DNA from: Campylobacterales bacterium
GTDB lineage: Bacteria; Campylobacterota; Campylobacteria; Campylobacterales; QNZT01
DNA length: 57,802 bases
Assembly: GCA_027066435.1 (NCBI GenBank)
Contig: JAMONX010000003.1
Coordinates: forward strand, 1-57,802
Reading direction: 5' to 3'
The notes under the pieces were generated by a model, which saw nothing but the letters and a program-made list of their open reading frames with translations, did not search any database and had not been told where the DNA came from. The position numbers and the translations under genes were made by a program. Shown one piece after another: positions 13,821 to 20,439 of the stretch (the stretch's first letter is position 1; each line of letters starts with the position of its first letter).

Positions 13821-14852
13821 TTATAGTATTAACATCGCATCACCGTATGAGTAGAAGCGATATTTTTTCTTTATAGCTTCACGATAGAGAAAAAGTGCTT
13901 CTTCAACTCCTACAAAACTAGCAACTAACATCAAAAGTGTAGATTTTGGGAGATGAAAATTTGTCAATAGATGATTTACTCTTTGGGGTAGATTTTTTGG
14001 ATGTAAAAAGAGATTTGATTTGCCAGATATTTTTTTTATTCTTTGATAATATTCAATAGTTCTAGTTACTGTTGTTCCAACTGCTAATATACTCTTATTA
14101 GAATCCAAAATCTTTTGCGTATCTTTGGGAATATTGTAAAACTCTTTGTGCATGATGTGGTTATTGATATTTTGATGCTCTACTGGCTTAAAAGTTCCAG
14201 CTCCCACATGAAGGGTTATAAAAGCACTATCATATTGTTCTTGCATCTTAGTTAAAAGTTCTGGTGTAAAGTGAAGAGATGCAGTTGGTGCTGCAACTGC
14301 ACCGATATTTTTTGCAAAAAGTGTTTGGTAGTTTTTTATATCCTCTTTGTTATCTTCTCTTTTTATATATGGTGGGAGAGGGATATGTCCTATGAGTTCT
14401 AAAATATCATTTAACTGTTCAAAATCTATTTCGCTATCTTTTTGATAAAACTTTACTACTCTTGTTCCATCTTCATTTATTTTTAAAATGCTAGCTGTGA
14501 GTTCTTGAGTAAATATAAGTTTAGTATCTTTCTTTACCTTACCTTTTATATAAACTAAAAAATTGTTATCTTTAAGTGGACTGTTTATAAGTAATTCTAT
14601 CTTTGCTCCACTCTCTTTATGTCCAAAGAGTCTTGCTTTTATCACTTTTGTGTCATTCAAAATTATAGAGCTATTCTTTGGAATGTGAGTTAAAATATCT
14701 CTAAATATAGTATGAGTTAGTGATTTGTCTTCACGATTATAGACTAAAAGTTTTGCACTATCTTTTGGGTTTGCAGGAGATGAAGCTATAAGCTCCTGTG
14801 GCAATTCATAATCATATGAATCTACCAAAAGAGGGTTTAAATTACTTCTCAT
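13821..14852 (-). CDS. queA: S-adenosylmethionine:tRNA ribosyltransferase-isomerase
   Basis: QueA transfers and isomerises the ribosyl part of SAM onto preQ1-modified tRNA to give epoxyqueuosine. Family blocks include YDYELPQELIAS, LNDTKVIKARL, IGHIPLPPYIKRED, ASLHFTPELL and TLHVGAGTFKPV, and the end is FYSYGDAMLIL. ATG 14852 (343 aa) matches the usual N-terminus. A longer frame to 14891 would extend well into tatC. Overlap with tatC is 11 nt, so the genes are coupled. Confidence 0.94.
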   Translation of the reverse strand: MRSNLNPLLVDSYDYELPQELIASSPANPKDSAKLLVYNREDKSLTHTIFRDILTHIPKNSSIILNDTKVIKARLFGHKESGAKIELLINSPLKDNNFLVYIKGKVKKDTKLIFTQELTASILKINEDGTRVVKFYQKDSEIDFEQLNDILELIGHIPLPPYIKREDNKEDIKNYQTLFAKNIGAVAAPTASLHFTPELLTKMQEQYDSAFITLHVGAGTFKPVEHQNINNHIMHKEFYNIPKDTQKILDSNKSILAVGTTVTRTIEYYQRIKKISGKSNLFLHPKNLPQRVNHLLTNFHLPKSTLLMLVASFVGVEEALFLYREAIKKKYRFYSYGDAMLIL

Positions 14853-15573
14853 TTGTAGTTTCGACAACCTCTGGATTAACCTTTTTTGCAATCAGTATAG
14901 AAGCACCATAGAGTAGTATCATAGGACCTGCCATCAAAAACTGTGTTATTAAGTCAGGAGGTGTTAAAAGAGCTGAAAGTAAAAAGATAACAACAATCGC
15001 ATATCTAAAAAAATCAATCATTGTTCTATCTGTTACCAGCCCCATAGAAGCTAGAAAAAATGTAATTACAGGAAGCTCAAATGCTAACCCAAAACCAAGT
15101 AAAAGTTTTGTAAAAAAACCAACATAATCCCCAATACTTGGAAGTGCGGTAAAGAGTTGTGCTCCAAAATTTATAAGAAATTCATATCCAAAAGGAATTA
15201 CAACATAATAACAAAATGCAGAACCCATTAAAAACATAGTAGTTGCACCCACAACAAAAGGTACTACCATCTTTTTCTCATTTTCGTAAAGTCCAGGTGC
15301 TACAAAAAGCCATAATTGCCAAAAAATGATAGGAAGAGCGGCTATAAAACCTGAGAAGAATGCTACCTTTATCGCAGTAAAAAATGGTTCTTGAACTTTT
15401 GTAAATATAACACTGCTTCCTTCTGGCAGTACTTCAATTAGCGGAGCTATCATCCAGTTAAGTATAGGATTCCAAAAGGCAAACATTATAAAGAAAAGAA
15501 CTATGATAGAGCCTACAGATATTGCCAATCTTTTTCTAAGCTCCGCAAGGTGCGGTTTTAACTCCTCAAACAT
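14842..15573 (-). CDS. tatC: Sec-independent protein translocase TatC
   Basis: TatC is the receptor core of the twin-arginine export system. The protein is 243 aa with six membrane segments. It begins FEELKPHLAELRKRL, carries VQEPFFTAIKVAF, and has the conserved FE.P region (FGLAFELPVITFFL). It overlaps tatB by 8 nt. The Tat system is needed here for NapA and NapG, both of which carry twin-arginine signals. Confidence 0.96.
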   Translation of the reverse strand: MFEELKPHLAELRKRLAISVGSIIVLFFIMFAFWNPILNWMIAPLIEVLPEGSSVIFTKVQEPFFTAIKVAFFSGFIAALPIIFWQLWLFVAPGLYENEKKMVVPFVVGATTMFLMGSAFCYYVVIPFGYEFLINFGAQLFTALPSIGDYVGFFTKLLLGFGLAFELPVITFFLASMGLVTDRTMIDFFRYAIVVIFLLSALLTPPDLITQFLMAGPMILLYGASILIAKKVNPEVVETTNEK

Positions 15574-15895
15574 CTTTTTTGTCCTTCTTATCTAGTTTTG
15601 TGACGGACTCTTTTATGTCGCTTATGCCCTCATTTAGGTCATCTATTATATTGACATCTTTTTTTACATCATTGACTGATTTTTCTAGTTCTTCTTTGTA
15701 CTTTATCGCACCATCTTTAAGTTCAGCTAGATGCATCTGGTGTTCGATTGTATCTTTTGCTTCATTGATACTGCTTTTAAAGCTTTTGAAAAATTTGGCA
15801 ATTTTCATCATAGCTTCAGGTAATTTTTCAGGTCCTAAAAATAGTACAGCGATAATTGCTATAACCAATATTTCTGCGAAACTCATTCCAAACAT
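15566..15895 (-). CDS. tatB: Sec-independent protein translocase TatB
   Basis: The 109-aa protein has the TatA/B opening (MFGMSFAEILVIAIIAVLF), the LGPEKLPE turn, an amphipathic helix and a long charged, coiled-coil-like tail. The tail and the position beside tatC favour TatB over TatA. It is first in the tatB-tatC-queA-arsC-like run. The region 15896-16113 upstream is gene-free and holds the start signals of two divergent operons. Confidence 0.9.
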   Translation of the reverse strand: MFGMSFAEILVIAIIAVLFLGPEKLPEAMMKIAKFFKSFKSSINEAKDTIEHQMHLAELKDGAIKYKEELEKSVNDVKKDVNIIDDLNEGISDIKESVTKLDKKDKKDV

Positions 15896-16113: not shown

Positions 16114-17118
16114 ATGAAATTTGTTGGACTATTATTGACACTAGTTTTAACAGTATCAATAAGTGCAAAAGAGAGTACAAAATTAGTATGGCCTTCTCCT
16201 CCAGACCCCGCTAGAATAGAACTCCAAGGGGTTGTTACAAAGCCTGAAGATTTACAGATAGAGAAAGGACTCTTTACAAAGGTATGGGAATTTTTTGTAG
16301 GGTCTTCAAAAGAGAGTTTGGTTAAGCCATTTGGTCTTCATGTTGATGAGAATAGAAGAGTTTATATCACCGATGTAGGTTTAAGAGCAGTTATTATTTT
16401 AGATCCAACCAGAAATAAAAAATTGATTATAGATGGTTCAAAAGAGTATAAGCTTTTATCTCCTATGGATGTAGATACGGATGCTAGTGGAAATATATTT
16501 ATAGCAGATTCAGAGCAGGGGTTTATACATGTCTATGATAAAAATGGAAAATTTTTAAAAATTATAGGGAAAAAACGACTTCATAGACCAGTTGGTATTG
16601 CAGTTGATTCGAAATCAAATCTAATTTATGTGGTAGATACTTTAAAGAGTAAAATTCAAGTTTATTCAGTAGATGGAAAATATGTAAAAACACTTGGAAA
16701 AGTGGGAGCAGGTGATGGAGAGTTTAATAAGCCTACATATATCGCATTAGATGCGAATGATGGCTATCTTTATGTTAGTGATTCTATGAATCATAGAGTT
16801 CAGGTAATTGATAAAAATGGAAAATTTATTAATAAATTTGGACAATTAGGTAATACAATGGGCTCTTTTGCAAATCCTAGAGGTATAACCATAGATAAAG
16901 AAGGTCATATTTTTGTAACAGATACTACTTTTCATGCTGTACAAATATTTAATAAAAAGGGTCAGCTTCTTTTGGCATTTGGAAGTTATGGAGATCATAA
17001 AGGAGAATTTGCAATTCCTGAAGATATAGTTATTTCAAATGATGGAACTATATATGTTGCAGATTCATATAATATGAGGGTACAAGTTTTTAAATTATTA
17101 GAAGTTAAAACAAAATAG
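16114..17118 (+). CDS. Secreted NHL-repeat beta-propeller protein
   Basis: The 334-aa protein has a signal peptide (MKFVGLLLTLVLTVSISA). About six NHL-type blades follow, each with a pattern like PVGIAVDSKSNLIYVVDTLKSKIQVY or PRGITIDKEGHIFVTDTTFHAVQIF, from about residue 65 to the end. No haem motif is present. NHL propellers are commonly encoded beside multihaem cytochromes in metal-reducing bacteria, where they may scaffold the complex; that role is inferred. A 10-nt gap to the large cytochrome gene implies one transcript. Confidence 0.88.
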   Translation: MKFVGLLLTLVLTVSISAKESTKLVWPSPPDPARIELQGVVTKPEDLQIEKGLFTKVWEFFVGSSKESLVKPFGLHVDENRRVYITDVGLRAVIILDPTRNKKLIIDGSKEYKLLSPMDVDTDASGNIFIADSEQGFIHVYDKNGKFLKIIGKKRLHRPVGIAVDSKSNLIYVVDTLKSKIQVYSVDGKYVKTLGKVGAGDGEFNKPTYIALDANDGYLYVSDSMNHRVQVIDKNGKFINKFGQLGNTMGSFANPRGITIDKEGHIFVTDTTFHAVQIFNKKGQLLLAFGSYGDHKGEFAIPEDIVISNDGTIYVADSYNMRVQVFKLLEVKTK

Positions 17119-17128
17119 GGGATAGTAG

Positions 17129-19216
17129 ATGAGAGAATTAAATAAAATTATTATATTGCTTTTATTGATACAAAGTGCAATTTTTGCGATAGTTGATAAT
17201 ACAAAGCATAATTTATCTGTAACGGGACCGGGCAGTGTTAAGTCACTTACTGAGACAGAGATTTGTGTGTTTTGTCATATTCCTCACTCTGCTCAATCTG
17301 GACGGCCTTTATGGAATAGAGCAATGCCAAGTGGTTCATATACTATGTATGAAAGTGATTATCTTGACAGATTAAATTATCCAAAACCAGCAGGACTAGG
17401 AGTTGCAAAAGGGACTCCTGGTTCTCTCTCTAGGCAGTGCTTAAGTTGTCATGATGGAACTATTGCAATAGGTTCTGTTTATATGGTTAGAGGAAATATT
17501 TTAGGAAATACACTTATAAATATGAGTGGTGTAAATGCAGGAGGAATGATGCCTGCTGGTAGTGCAGGTGACATAGGTACAGATTTATCAGTTCATCATC
17601 CTGTAGGATATGAATATAATCCAAATGTTACTGTAAATTTTGGTGAAGGAAATAGACCTAGTGAACTTAAACTTTCCCCAGATGCACCAATAAGACTTTA
17701 TCAATTAGGCTCTAAAAAATATGTAGAGTGTTCTACTTGCCATGACCCGCACAGTGAAAATAAAAAGTTTTTAAGAGTGAAATCTGGAGCAAATCATGGT
17801 CAAAATGTTCGTGATACCTGTTTAGCTTGTCATGATAAAAGTGGAGGTGTCCCATGGCCTACTACTCATGAAGTTATAGGTATGCCTTATAGAGATTCTG
17901 AAGTTTTTAGCAAATATGGCACATATAGTCCAAGTGATCTTTTTTGTGTTAATTGTCATACTCCTCACAATGGAGAAGGTAAACCATATCTTTTAAGAAA
18001 AATTGAACAGCAGACTTGTTTTCAAGGGGCCGCTTCGTCAGTTAGTTTATCATCTTGTCATGGATCAGGAGCTCCTACCTCTGCTCCAGATATTGAGTCA
18101 GTACTTTCAAGACCTTATGGACACCCAGTAATGGAGATAGATGGAGTACATACAAATCTTGATGTTTTATATGGAACAGGCGTAGCTAGAAATCCATCTG
18201 GAAGTAAAGGTTTAAGCTGGAGTGATTCAAAACATGCAGAGTGTATGGATTGCCATAATCCACATAAACTAGGGAGTAAAAATCATGTAGCTGATGGTCA
18301 ATGGTACCCTTCAATCCCTACAAATAATGTTTCCCAAGTTTTAAGAGGTGTTTCTGGGGTTGAACCAGATTGGACACCTAGAGGAATTCAGCCAACATCA
18401 TTTACTACACTTGAAACTGCAACTAAAGAGTACCAAATATGTTTAAAGTGCCACTCTTATTGGGCATTAGGTAGTGCTCCAGATGGCGTTTCCTCTCATT
18501 TTCTATCCGAATATGGTATAAATGCAACTGATCAAGCTTGGGAGTTTAATCCAAATAATCGTTCAGCTCATCCTGTTGTAATGCCGTTAAATCAAATGAC
18601 TGGAAATTATGCACCAAAAGCACTCCACTCTTCTCAGATGAAGCCACCGTGGAATACAAATGTAGGAAATCAGACAATGTACTGTTCTGATTGTCATGGT
18701 TCTGATAATGAGATAGGAGGGGATGCAAGAGGCCCTCATGGTTCAAACTATAAGTTTATGTTAAAGGGTGAAAATAATCATTGGCCATTAAAGCCTGATG
18801 GGTCGTATTATACAGTATGGGGTGATGTAGATTGGAGTACAAACAATGTAAATGATGGACTTTTTTGTAGAAATTGTCATAATATATATGTAAATGAACC
18901 AGGTGGTGCTGGCTCTCATAAAATGTTTTTTGGTGGTATGGGTGGACCTTGTGTAAATTGTCATATAGCAGTTCCTCACGGGTCTCCTGTTTCAAATTTA
19001 TTGGGTTATAGAAGTTTTCCTGAACCTTACAATTATAAAGATGAACAAACTGGTGAATTGATGTTAAAAATTGATGGATATAAAAAGATTGGGGCAAATT
19101 ACTCTACGGTAGATGTTAAAAAAGTTTATTCTACTCATCCTAGTTGTAGTGGTGGTAGTACTCACGCAGCTCATTGTCATGTGACGAATACAGGTGGCTA
19201 TGATAGTTATCCATAA
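17129..19216 (+). CDS. Large multihaem cytochrome c (ten CxxCH plus two long-spaced motifs)
   Basis: A 695-aa exported protein (hydrophobic signal, residues 6-20). CxxCH motifs are at 46, 104, 201, 231, 273, 372, 438, 519, 580 and 608. Two further motifs have longer gaps: CX12CH at 297-311 and CX9CH at 673-684. Several are followed by PH (CHIPH, CHDPH, CHTPH, CHNPH), the doubled-CXXCH pattern. The N-terminal 110 residues resemble those of the pentahaem protein at 19714. It probably conducts electrons across or outside the periplasm. Electron donor and acceptor are unknown. The frame is intact. Confidence 0.9.
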   Translation: MRELNKIIILLLLIQSAIFAIVDNTKHNLSVTGPGSVKSLTETEICVFCHIPHSAQSGRPLWNRAMPSGSYTMYESDYLDRLNYPKPAGLGVAKGTPGSLSRQCLSCHDGTIAIGSVYMVRGNILGNTLINMSGVNAGGMMPAGSAGDIGTDLSVHHPVGYEYNPNVTVNFGEGNRPSELKLSPDAPIRLYQLGSKKYVECSTCHDPHSENKKFLRVKSGANHGQNVRDTCLACHDKSGGVPWPTTHEVIGMPYRDSEVFSKYGTYSPSDLFCVNCHTPHNGEGKPYLLRKIEQQTCFQGAASSVSLSSCHGSGAPTSAPDIESVLSRPYGHPVMEIDGVHTNLDVLYGTGVARNPSGSKGLSWSDSKHAECMDCHNPHKLGSKNHVADGQWYPSIPTNNVSQVLRGVSGVEPDWTPRGIQPTSFTTLETATKEYQICLKCHSYWALGSAPDGVSSHFLSEYGINATDQAWEFNPNNRSAHPVVMPLNQMTGNYAPKALHSSQMKPPWNTNVGNQTMYCSDCHGSDNEIGGDARGPHGSNYKFMLKGENNHWPLKPDGSYYTVWGDVDWSTNNVNDGLFCRNCHNIYVNEPGGAGSHKMFFGGMGGPCVNCHIAVPHGSPVSNLLGYRSFPEPYNYKDEQTGELMLKIDGYKKIGANYSTVDVKKVYSTHPSCSGGSTHAAHCHVTNTGGYDSYP

Positions 19217-19217
19217 A

Positions 19218-19667
19218 ATGAAATTTTTATTTGTAATTTTACTTGTGCCTTTTTTCTTAAATGCACAAGTTGATAATAGAGATATAAAAAAAGTCATCAT
19301 AAGTTATAATCAAGGTATTATAAAAGCAGCAAAGACAAGCAAAACAGAGCATATGAAAAGCTATGCAAAAGAAGATATAGTAAAAAAATTTCATCTTTGG
19401 ATAAAGTCTTGGCATGATAATAATCTCTTTATGGATGCAAAAATTAAAGATATAAATTTTCAAAAAGTTGAGATAAAAGATGGCAAAGCAAAAGTTACAA
19501 CAAATGAAGTTTGGATATATAGATATATTGATATCAAAACAAGAAAACAAGTTTTAGATGCGACTTTAATGACTTATAATATGAATTATATATTATCAAA
19601 AGAGAATGATAAGTGGATTATTGAAAAAATAGATGTAATATTTGAAAAGAAAGAGAAACTTAAGTGA
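19218..19667 (+). CDS. Small exported protein, probable NTF2-like fold
   Basis: A 149-aa product with a signal peptide (MKFLFVILLVPFFLNA) and a mixed alpha/beta body. The pattern of an N-terminal helix pair followed by strands ending NYILSKENDKWIIEKIDVIF resembles NTF2/SnoaL-like domains. The fold call is by pattern only. ATG 19218, one base after the cytochrome stop, gives a clean signal peptide; an in-frame GTG at 19194 would add eight residues. It lies between two cytochrome genes and may help assemble or bind them. Confidence 0.6.
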   Translation: MKFLFVILLVPFFLNAQVDNRDIKKVIISYNQGIIKAAKTSKTEHMKSYAKEDIVKKFHLWIKSWHDNNLFMDAKIKDINFQKVEIKDGKAKVTTNEVWIYRYIDIKTRKQVLDATLMTYNMNYILSKENDKWIIEKIDVIFEKKEKLK

Positions 19668-19713: not shown

Positions 19714-20439
19714 ATGAGGAATATTTTAAATAGAAAATATATTCTTACTATTTTATTAATGTTACCAATGGTTGCAAATAGCGGTTCTGTAGTTGGTTCA
19801 AAACATGATTTAAGTAATAGTAACTTTTATGGGGCTTTTGCTGGTTCAAGTACTCAAGTGTGTGTTTTTTGTCATACACCTCACTCCTCAAATAGTGGAC
19901 TAGCAGATGCGGGAGGTGCAAATGCTCCAATATGGAATAGAAGACTTACTAATTTAAGTGCATTTACACTATATGATTCAAGTGTAGGAACACCTAGTTC
20001 AATTTCTCTAGCTTGTCTTAGTTGTCATGATGGTGCAAGTGGTATGGGTAGAGTAAGTGCAGTAGGACCAGTAGATGCACATAATGTAATTAATGCATCT
20101 GGTACTGGTTTAGCAGGTGATAGTGGTAATGGTGGTGAGACTCCAAATTGTGCTGCTTGTCATCCATTTGCTCGACCAAGTGGTGGTACTACATATCCTA
20201 GTACTACCTGGCAAATAGGAGCTGATTTAACAGATGATCATCCAATCTCTATAAATTATGCTGCTTCCTTTGCCCATAATCCTGATGAATTTCTTTCTCA
20301 ACCAGCTAATGGGCTTAAGCTTTTTAATGGATTAATAGAGTGTGCAACTTGTCATAATGTACATGATAATGACAATGGACTCTTTTTAAGAACATCAAAT
20401 ATGGGAAGTGGGGTATGTAAATCTTGTCATATTAAGTGA
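19714..20439 (+). CDS. Pentahaem cytochrome c
   Basis: This 241-aa exported protein has five CxxCH motifs at residues 50, 101, 146, 210 and 235. It shares with the upstream large cytochrome the order KH(D/N)LS, CVFCH.PHS, WNR, TLYDS/TMYES and CLSCHDG, so the two arose from a common ancestor. It is probably a smaller periplasmic or surface electron carrier working with the larger one. The 3' end overlaps convergent hemW by 8 nt with no terminator visible. Confidence 0.9.
   Translation: MRNILNRKYILTILLMLPMVANSGSVVGSKHDLSNSNFYGAFAGSSTQVCVFCHTPHSSNSGLADAGGANAPIWNRRLTNLSAFTLYDSSVGTPSSISLACLSCHDGASGMGRVSAVGPVDAHNVINASGTGLAGDSGNGGETPNCAACHPFARPSGGTTYPSTTWQIGADLTDDHPISINYAASFAHNPDEFLSQPANGLKLFNGLIECATCHNVHDNDNGLFLRTSNMGSGVCKSCHIK

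Follow-up and report, generated by a model that had tools for sequence, protein, structure and literature searches.

In the textbook case haem c is attached through a CxxCH motif, and the few exceptions are each linked to special enzymes. The closest described systems with a longer gap are the octahaem cytochrome OmcZ, in which a 14-residue loop separates the haem-binding cysteines of haem 1 (CX14CH; PMC9473688), and the octahaem sulfite reductase MccA/SirA, whose single CX15CH motif depends in Wolinella on a dedicated CcsBA-type synthase, CcsA1 (PMC6976685, PMC10663686). The long loop of such a precedent site has been reported to matter for the reduction of soluble acceptors (PMC11208441). 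A further point of reference is OmcE of Geobacter sulfurreducens (7tfs), a 232-aa tetrahaem protein whose filaments, like those of OmcS, have one haem ligated by a histidine of the next subunit (PMC9473688, PMC12307469). The open-access literature yielded nothing relevant on CX12CH, CX7CH, CX8CH, CX9CH, CX11CH, CX13CH or CX17CH; most subscription papers lay outside this scope, and novelty of these spacings is unproven.

Here we describe a 695-aa multihaem cytochrome encoded in a 57,802-nucleotide stretch of a Campylobacterales genome, referred to as the window (Table 1). An earlier note on this DNA had likened its long-gap motifs to those of OmcZ and MccA, a comparison that is apt for the motif and does not extend to membership in either family. 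The likeness to OmcZ lies in a long loop between two haem cysteines of an extracellular cytochrome, whereas the spacing here is 12 and occurs at the sixth site, and OmcZ has no entry among the solved-structure matches of the window cytochrome. MccA/SirA likewise offers one long-gap motif together with its own synthase, but the window cytochrome has twelve sites and no MccA match, and belongs to an electron-conduit cluster. Both assignments were rejected on spacing, haem number and the absent sequence match.

The cytochrome and its OmcE-like domain

All 24 cysteines of the window cytochrome fall within 12 Cys...Cys-His units, namely ten CxxCH, one CX12CH and one CX9CH, so that no cysteine is left over; the motif count of the earlier note was confirmed. 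The description of the standard sites as evenly spaced is a loose one, as site-to-site distances range from 28 to 99 residues, and of the two long-gap units said to fill gaps in the series, the first does lie in the widest gap, between residues 273 and 372, whereas the second comes after the last standard site. Pfam recognizes doubled-CXXCH cytochrome repeats in the protein, and none of the curated equivalog families fits it. AlphaFold modelling of the cytochrome with 38 homologues was poor (pLDDT 57), and the Foldseek matches to that model were all meaningless.

Residues 9-237 match residues 13-232 of the OmcE filament 7tfs by phmmer (E 2.6e-25) and also match a second solved multihaem cytochrome, 9yuq_N, and the N-terminal domain reaches E 1.8e-36 in a profile search of solved structures. 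The domain covers almost the full length of OmcE and shares with it four CxxCH motifs and matching histidines. The window protein differs from OmcE in having about 460 further residues that carry eight more sites, of which two are non-standard. An OmcE-like domain is thus one part of the protein, and identity with OmcE proper, a protein of four haem sites without additional domains, was rejected on the count of twelve sites. The protein is of a multihaem electron-transfer type already known, and what is new is the combination of an OmcE-like domain with two non-canonical sites. The N-terminal His27 is conserved among relatives, and if it acts like the inter-subunit ligand of OmcE and OmcS, the cytochrome could dock on one end of an OmcE-like filament. 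The OmcE-like protein encoded downstream has a fifth CxxCH (CAACH) within an insertion, where OmcE has four, and three tandem genes for OmcE-like tetrahaem proteins lie away from the window on another contig of the same genome (G000 contig C59; L004, L115).

Table 1. Coordinates of the cytochrome, its sites and the neighboring cluster genes in the window.
Feature	Coordinates	Strand	Basis
NHL-repeat beta-propeller, directly upstream of cytochrome in full cluster	16114..17118	+	Pfam NHL; synteny
12-site multihaem cytochrome	17129..19216	+	695-aa ORF, stop in coordinates; Pfam Paired_CXXCH
Signal peptide, about residues 1-20	17129..17188	+	inferred from sequence MRELNKIIILLLLIQSAIFA; no lipobox Cys
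OmcE-like N-terminal domain, residues 1-238, four CxxCH	17129..17842	+	phmmer vs 7tfs; alignment to downstream OmcE-like protein
CxxCH haem site 1 (46-50)	17264..17278	+	motif
CxxCH haem site 2 (104-108)	17438..17452	+	motif
CxxCH haem site 3 (201-205)	17729..17743	+	motif
CxxCH haem site 4 (231-235)	17819..17833	+	motif
CxxCH haem site 5 (273-277)	17945..17959	+	motif
CX12CH site 6 (297-311), C-[FY]-x-G-A-loop-CH	18017..18061	+	motif; conservation; CxxCH in outgroups
CxxCH haem site 7 (372-376)	18242..18256	+	motif
CxxCH haem site 8 (438-442)	18440..18454	+	motif
CxxCH haem site 9 (519-523)	18683..18697	+	motif
CxxCH haem site 10 (580-584)	18866..18880	+	motif
CxxCH haem site 11 (608-612)	18950..18964	+	motif
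CX9CH site 12 (673-684), C-terminal, spacing-variable	19145..19180	+	motif; spacing 1-11 among relatives
Small secreted protein, about 149 aa, ORF opens 19194	19218..19667	+	synteny; no Pfam family
OmcE-like cytochrome, five CxxCH, candidate filament subunit	19714..20439	+	Pfam, alignment, synteny

The conserved cluster and its predicted barrel

The cytochrome belongs to a gene cluster that is conserved in three phyla, Campylobacterota, Aquificota and Nitrospirota. The usual order is an OmcE-like protein, an NHL propeller, a prolyl isomerase, a protein of about 550-600 aa, a second NHL propeller, the 12-site cytochrome and the small secreted protein, followed by a haem synthase that is either a fused CcsBA or, in Nitrospirota, split into ResB and CcsA. 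The window genome has the cluster in two pieces, one NHL propeller, the cytochrome, the small protein and an OmcE-like gene lying in the window and the other propeller, the isomerase, the barrel described below and CcsBA on a separate contig (G000:C60). The cluster protein of about 580 aa has no match in Pfam and is confidently modelled by AlphaFold as a 28-strand barrel (pLDDT 88), with MtrB of the Mtr complex (6r2q_B) giving the highest query TM-score, 0.49, among the matches listed. A predicted outer-membrane barrel, as in porin-cytochrome systems, is thus part of the cluster, located on G000:C60 in this genome. The likeness to an MtrCAB-type conduit is one of predicted structure.

Propellers, isomerases and multihaem cytochromes also occur together in an operon of SEEP-SRB1 and Desulfuromonadales (PMC5539420), and the loci of Nitrospirota relatives with CX2CH at site 6 (L042-L048, L193) are similar, adjoining cytochromes of 21-26 and 15-16 CxxCH as well as a PPIase. 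The Campylobacterota cluster differs from that operon in its 12-site cytochrome, its predicted barrel of the outer membrane, its OmcE-like subunits and a CcsBA of its own, and with it the range of OmcE-type electron-conduit clusters comes to include Campylobacterota and Aquificota. At one locus (L124, G009 contig C84) the NHL propeller, small protein and CcsBA stand together without a cytochrome between them, and the cytochrome of that genome is on another contig. On the minus strand of the window, just upstream of the cytochrome group, are tatC- and tatA-like genes (14842-15895).

Cysteine spacing at sites 6 and 12

A scan of genome contigs gave 46 loci with relatives of the cytochrome, and searches of Campylobacterales, Aquificota and Nitrospirota genomes added more; several records bear the names Persephonella, Hydrogenimonas or Sulfurimonas, and no homologue was found in plasmid records. 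Site 6 was analyzed in a core set of 42 non-redundant sequences with mutual identity down to 43%, site 12 in 66 non-redundant relatives whose C-terminus is complete, and changes of spacing on a 62-sequence tree. The window genome holds a second 12-site copy outside the cluster (contig C154; L002, L114), which is 59% identical, retains CX12CH and has CX1CH (CNCH) as its C-terminal site. Two copies in a Persephonella bin (L050:7980-10047 and L029:7998-10877) are frameshifted, possibly by assembly error or decay.

At site 6, C297, C310 and H311 are invariant in all 42 core relatives, as is G300, with A301 present in 41, and almost every one has a gap of 12 residues, the exception being L027 with 13. 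The same alignment column is a plain CxxCH in outgroups (EEQTCYRCH in L138, IEQTCYACH in L055, EEACYTCH in L135, EESLCEACH in L165 and ...MGCEACH in a Nitrospirota group) and in proteobacterial relatives. As the first cysteine follows the same E-E-x-x anchor in these outgroups and in the core, where the sequence reads EEQTCFQGA...CHGTG, the extra residues must sit between the cysteines. Further relatives have X = 7 (CYNGTSTSCH), 13, 14, 16 or 17, and only about six changes of spacing class are needed on the tree. Site 6 thus combines two cysteines and a histidine with homology to a CxxCH site, and because that column is a canonical haem site in the outgroups, CX12CH very probably binds haem. 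A switch between canonical and long-loop forms in which both cysteines and the histidine are retained would make little sense if haem were no longer bound, and the spacings X = 2, 7, 12, 13, 14, 16 and 17 provide a natural range of loop lengths at a single haem site.

Site 12 follows a different pattern. Two tail cysteines are present in 64 of 66 relatives; the second directly precedes the histidine in 52 of these, and the histidine lies 2-4 residues later in 12, a displacement seen in some Nitrospirota relatives, while L032 and L050 have a single tail cysteine. The relatives that retain the CH pair have spacings of 1 (10 sequences), 2 (4), 3 (6), 4 (11), 5 (9), 6 (4), 7 (3), 9 (2), 10 (1) and 11 (2). 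At least 25 changes of spacing class are required on the tree, and CX1CH alone accounts for 7, all forced by well-supported branches. Even close relatives have unlike tails, as in L017 (CSCH) and L035 (CNQCH), L147 (CX1CH) and L143 (CX5CH), or the window cytochrome (CX9CH) and L009 (CKCH). Because canonical CX2CH recurs along with CX3CH and CX4CH, haem is the simplest reading of the site, and CX9CH probably binds it. To our knowledge CX1CH has no precedent, and two thioethers may be impossible there. With the site 6 triad invariant and the tail pair nearly so, the long-gap motifs are not chance occurrences, and the loss of these residues in homologues that the earlier note had named as decisive against them was not observed.

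Haem synthase, probable haem number and proposed electron path

The cytochrome occurs in 12 of 349 Campylobacterales genomes, and a cluster-type CcsBA is found in 12/12 of these and in 1/337 of those lacking the cytochrome, a co-occurrence that does not amount to twelve independent events because the genomes are related. CcsBA scores against the cluster type were 1261-2399 bits in the 12 cytochrome genomes, and the next best CcsBA scored 1110; in the one exception (G072) the end of the contig cuts off what would lie immediately upstream of the small cluster gene and CcsBA. In the CcsBA tree the cluster-associated proteins fall on one side of a branch with SH-aLRT 98, and housekeeping CcsBA group by family.

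We consider it likely that the window protein is a twelve-haem c-type cytochrome of an outer-membrane and extracellular electron-transfer module, a reading that includes the two odd sites and the cluster's own CcsBA. Its N-terminal third would be an OmcE-like filament domain and the remainder an eight-site domain, in which site 6 would be an ordinary haem c site with a 10-residue loop inserted between the thioether cysteines and site 12 a haem c site under loose control of spacing. Electrons would cross the outer membrane via the cluster beta-barrel and would then, in the direction that we infer, run along the cytochrome to OmcE-like filaments, and the cluster CcsBA would attach haem to the cytochrome at standard and odd sites. 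The twelve haems envisaged in the earlier note are thus well supported as far as CX12CH is concerned, given its CxxCH counterparts, and plausible for CX9CH, where cysteines and histidine are kept and the spacing is hypervariable.

The tail also allows another reading, in which CX12CH binds haem, the C-terminal cysteines form a disulfide or hold another metal, and the histidine serves as a distal ligand, perhaps to the haem of a neighboring subunit. Such an eleven-haem protein seems unlikely, even though it would account for the almost free spacing of 1-11, the displaced histidine in 12 of 66 relatives, the single-cysteine tails and the CX1CH form, and although histidine-mediated ligation between subunits is known from OmcE and OmcS (PMC9473688). 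Against it, the cysteine and histidine are adjacent in 52 of 64 relatives despite the free distance between cysteines, several lineages have CX2CH, CX3CH or CX4CH, a CX1C disulfide would itself be unusual, and the family's 14-15 conserved non-motif histidines already suffice for twelve bis-His haems. A count of ten, with both extra cysteine pairs forming disulfides or serving a structural role, has non-standard spacing as its only argument and is very improbable, given that site 6 is homologous to the outgroup CxxCH and keeps its CH in all core members and that a disulfide needs no histidine fixed beside the second cysteine. Within the twelve-haem reading, we propose only tentatively, and with some doubt, that site 12 is a haem c site whose cysteine spacing has been free to drift, repeatedly to CX1CH, and that a CcsBA lineage tolerant of such drift serves it.

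What the cluster CcsBA contributes is a separate matter, and a distinct synthase co-inherited with an unusual cytochrome does recall the CcsA1-type pair of Wolinella. That precedent for CX15CH (PMC6976685), the near-perfect co-occurrence and the fact that the cluster enzymes form a clade apart, even where a genome has a housekeeping CcsBA as well (G093 and G059 encode both types), argue against the alternative that the enzyme is extra haem-loading capacity carried with the cluster and has no preference for long gaps. This alternative nevertheless comes close to an even chance, falling slightly short of it. Some relatives in which site 6 is CX2CH (L044, L052) also have split CcsB/CcsA genes as neighbors, and members with X = 7, 16 or 17 and one member with X = 13 have no synthase gene next to them. 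The coupling of lyase and long gap is thus not strict; a synthase confined to the long-gap motif, as in Wolinella, is not what the cluster shows, and the idea that long gaps and adjacent synthases go together was rejected in its strict form. The WWD active-site segment is identical in both clades, and a search for pocket changes returned only two weak clade-specific positions (K378 and E389 in L027 numbering). Moreover, the cluster type is the only CcsBA found in the window genome (G000) and in G003, G006 and G009, and it therefore probably serves ordinary CxxCH sites there too.

The surprise lies at the level of the family, where one haem site comes with a natural range of loop lengths and another has a drifting spacing. 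If site 12 is indeed a haem site with freely drifting spacing, it would mean, together with the site 6 series (X = 2, 7, 12-17), that CxxCH spacing is no hard constraint in natural System II maturation. With the site 6 series and tails as different as those of L017 and L035 occurring in genomes that have one or two CcsBA types, synthase recognition becomes directly testable, and haem counts taken from CxxCH searches would undercount electron-transfer proteins of this cytochrome family. At one locus (L032:10471-16805), three System II synthase genes follow one another, a split CcsA-like, a split ResB-like and a fused CcsBA, and adjoin a cytochrome with a single cysteine at its C-terminal site.
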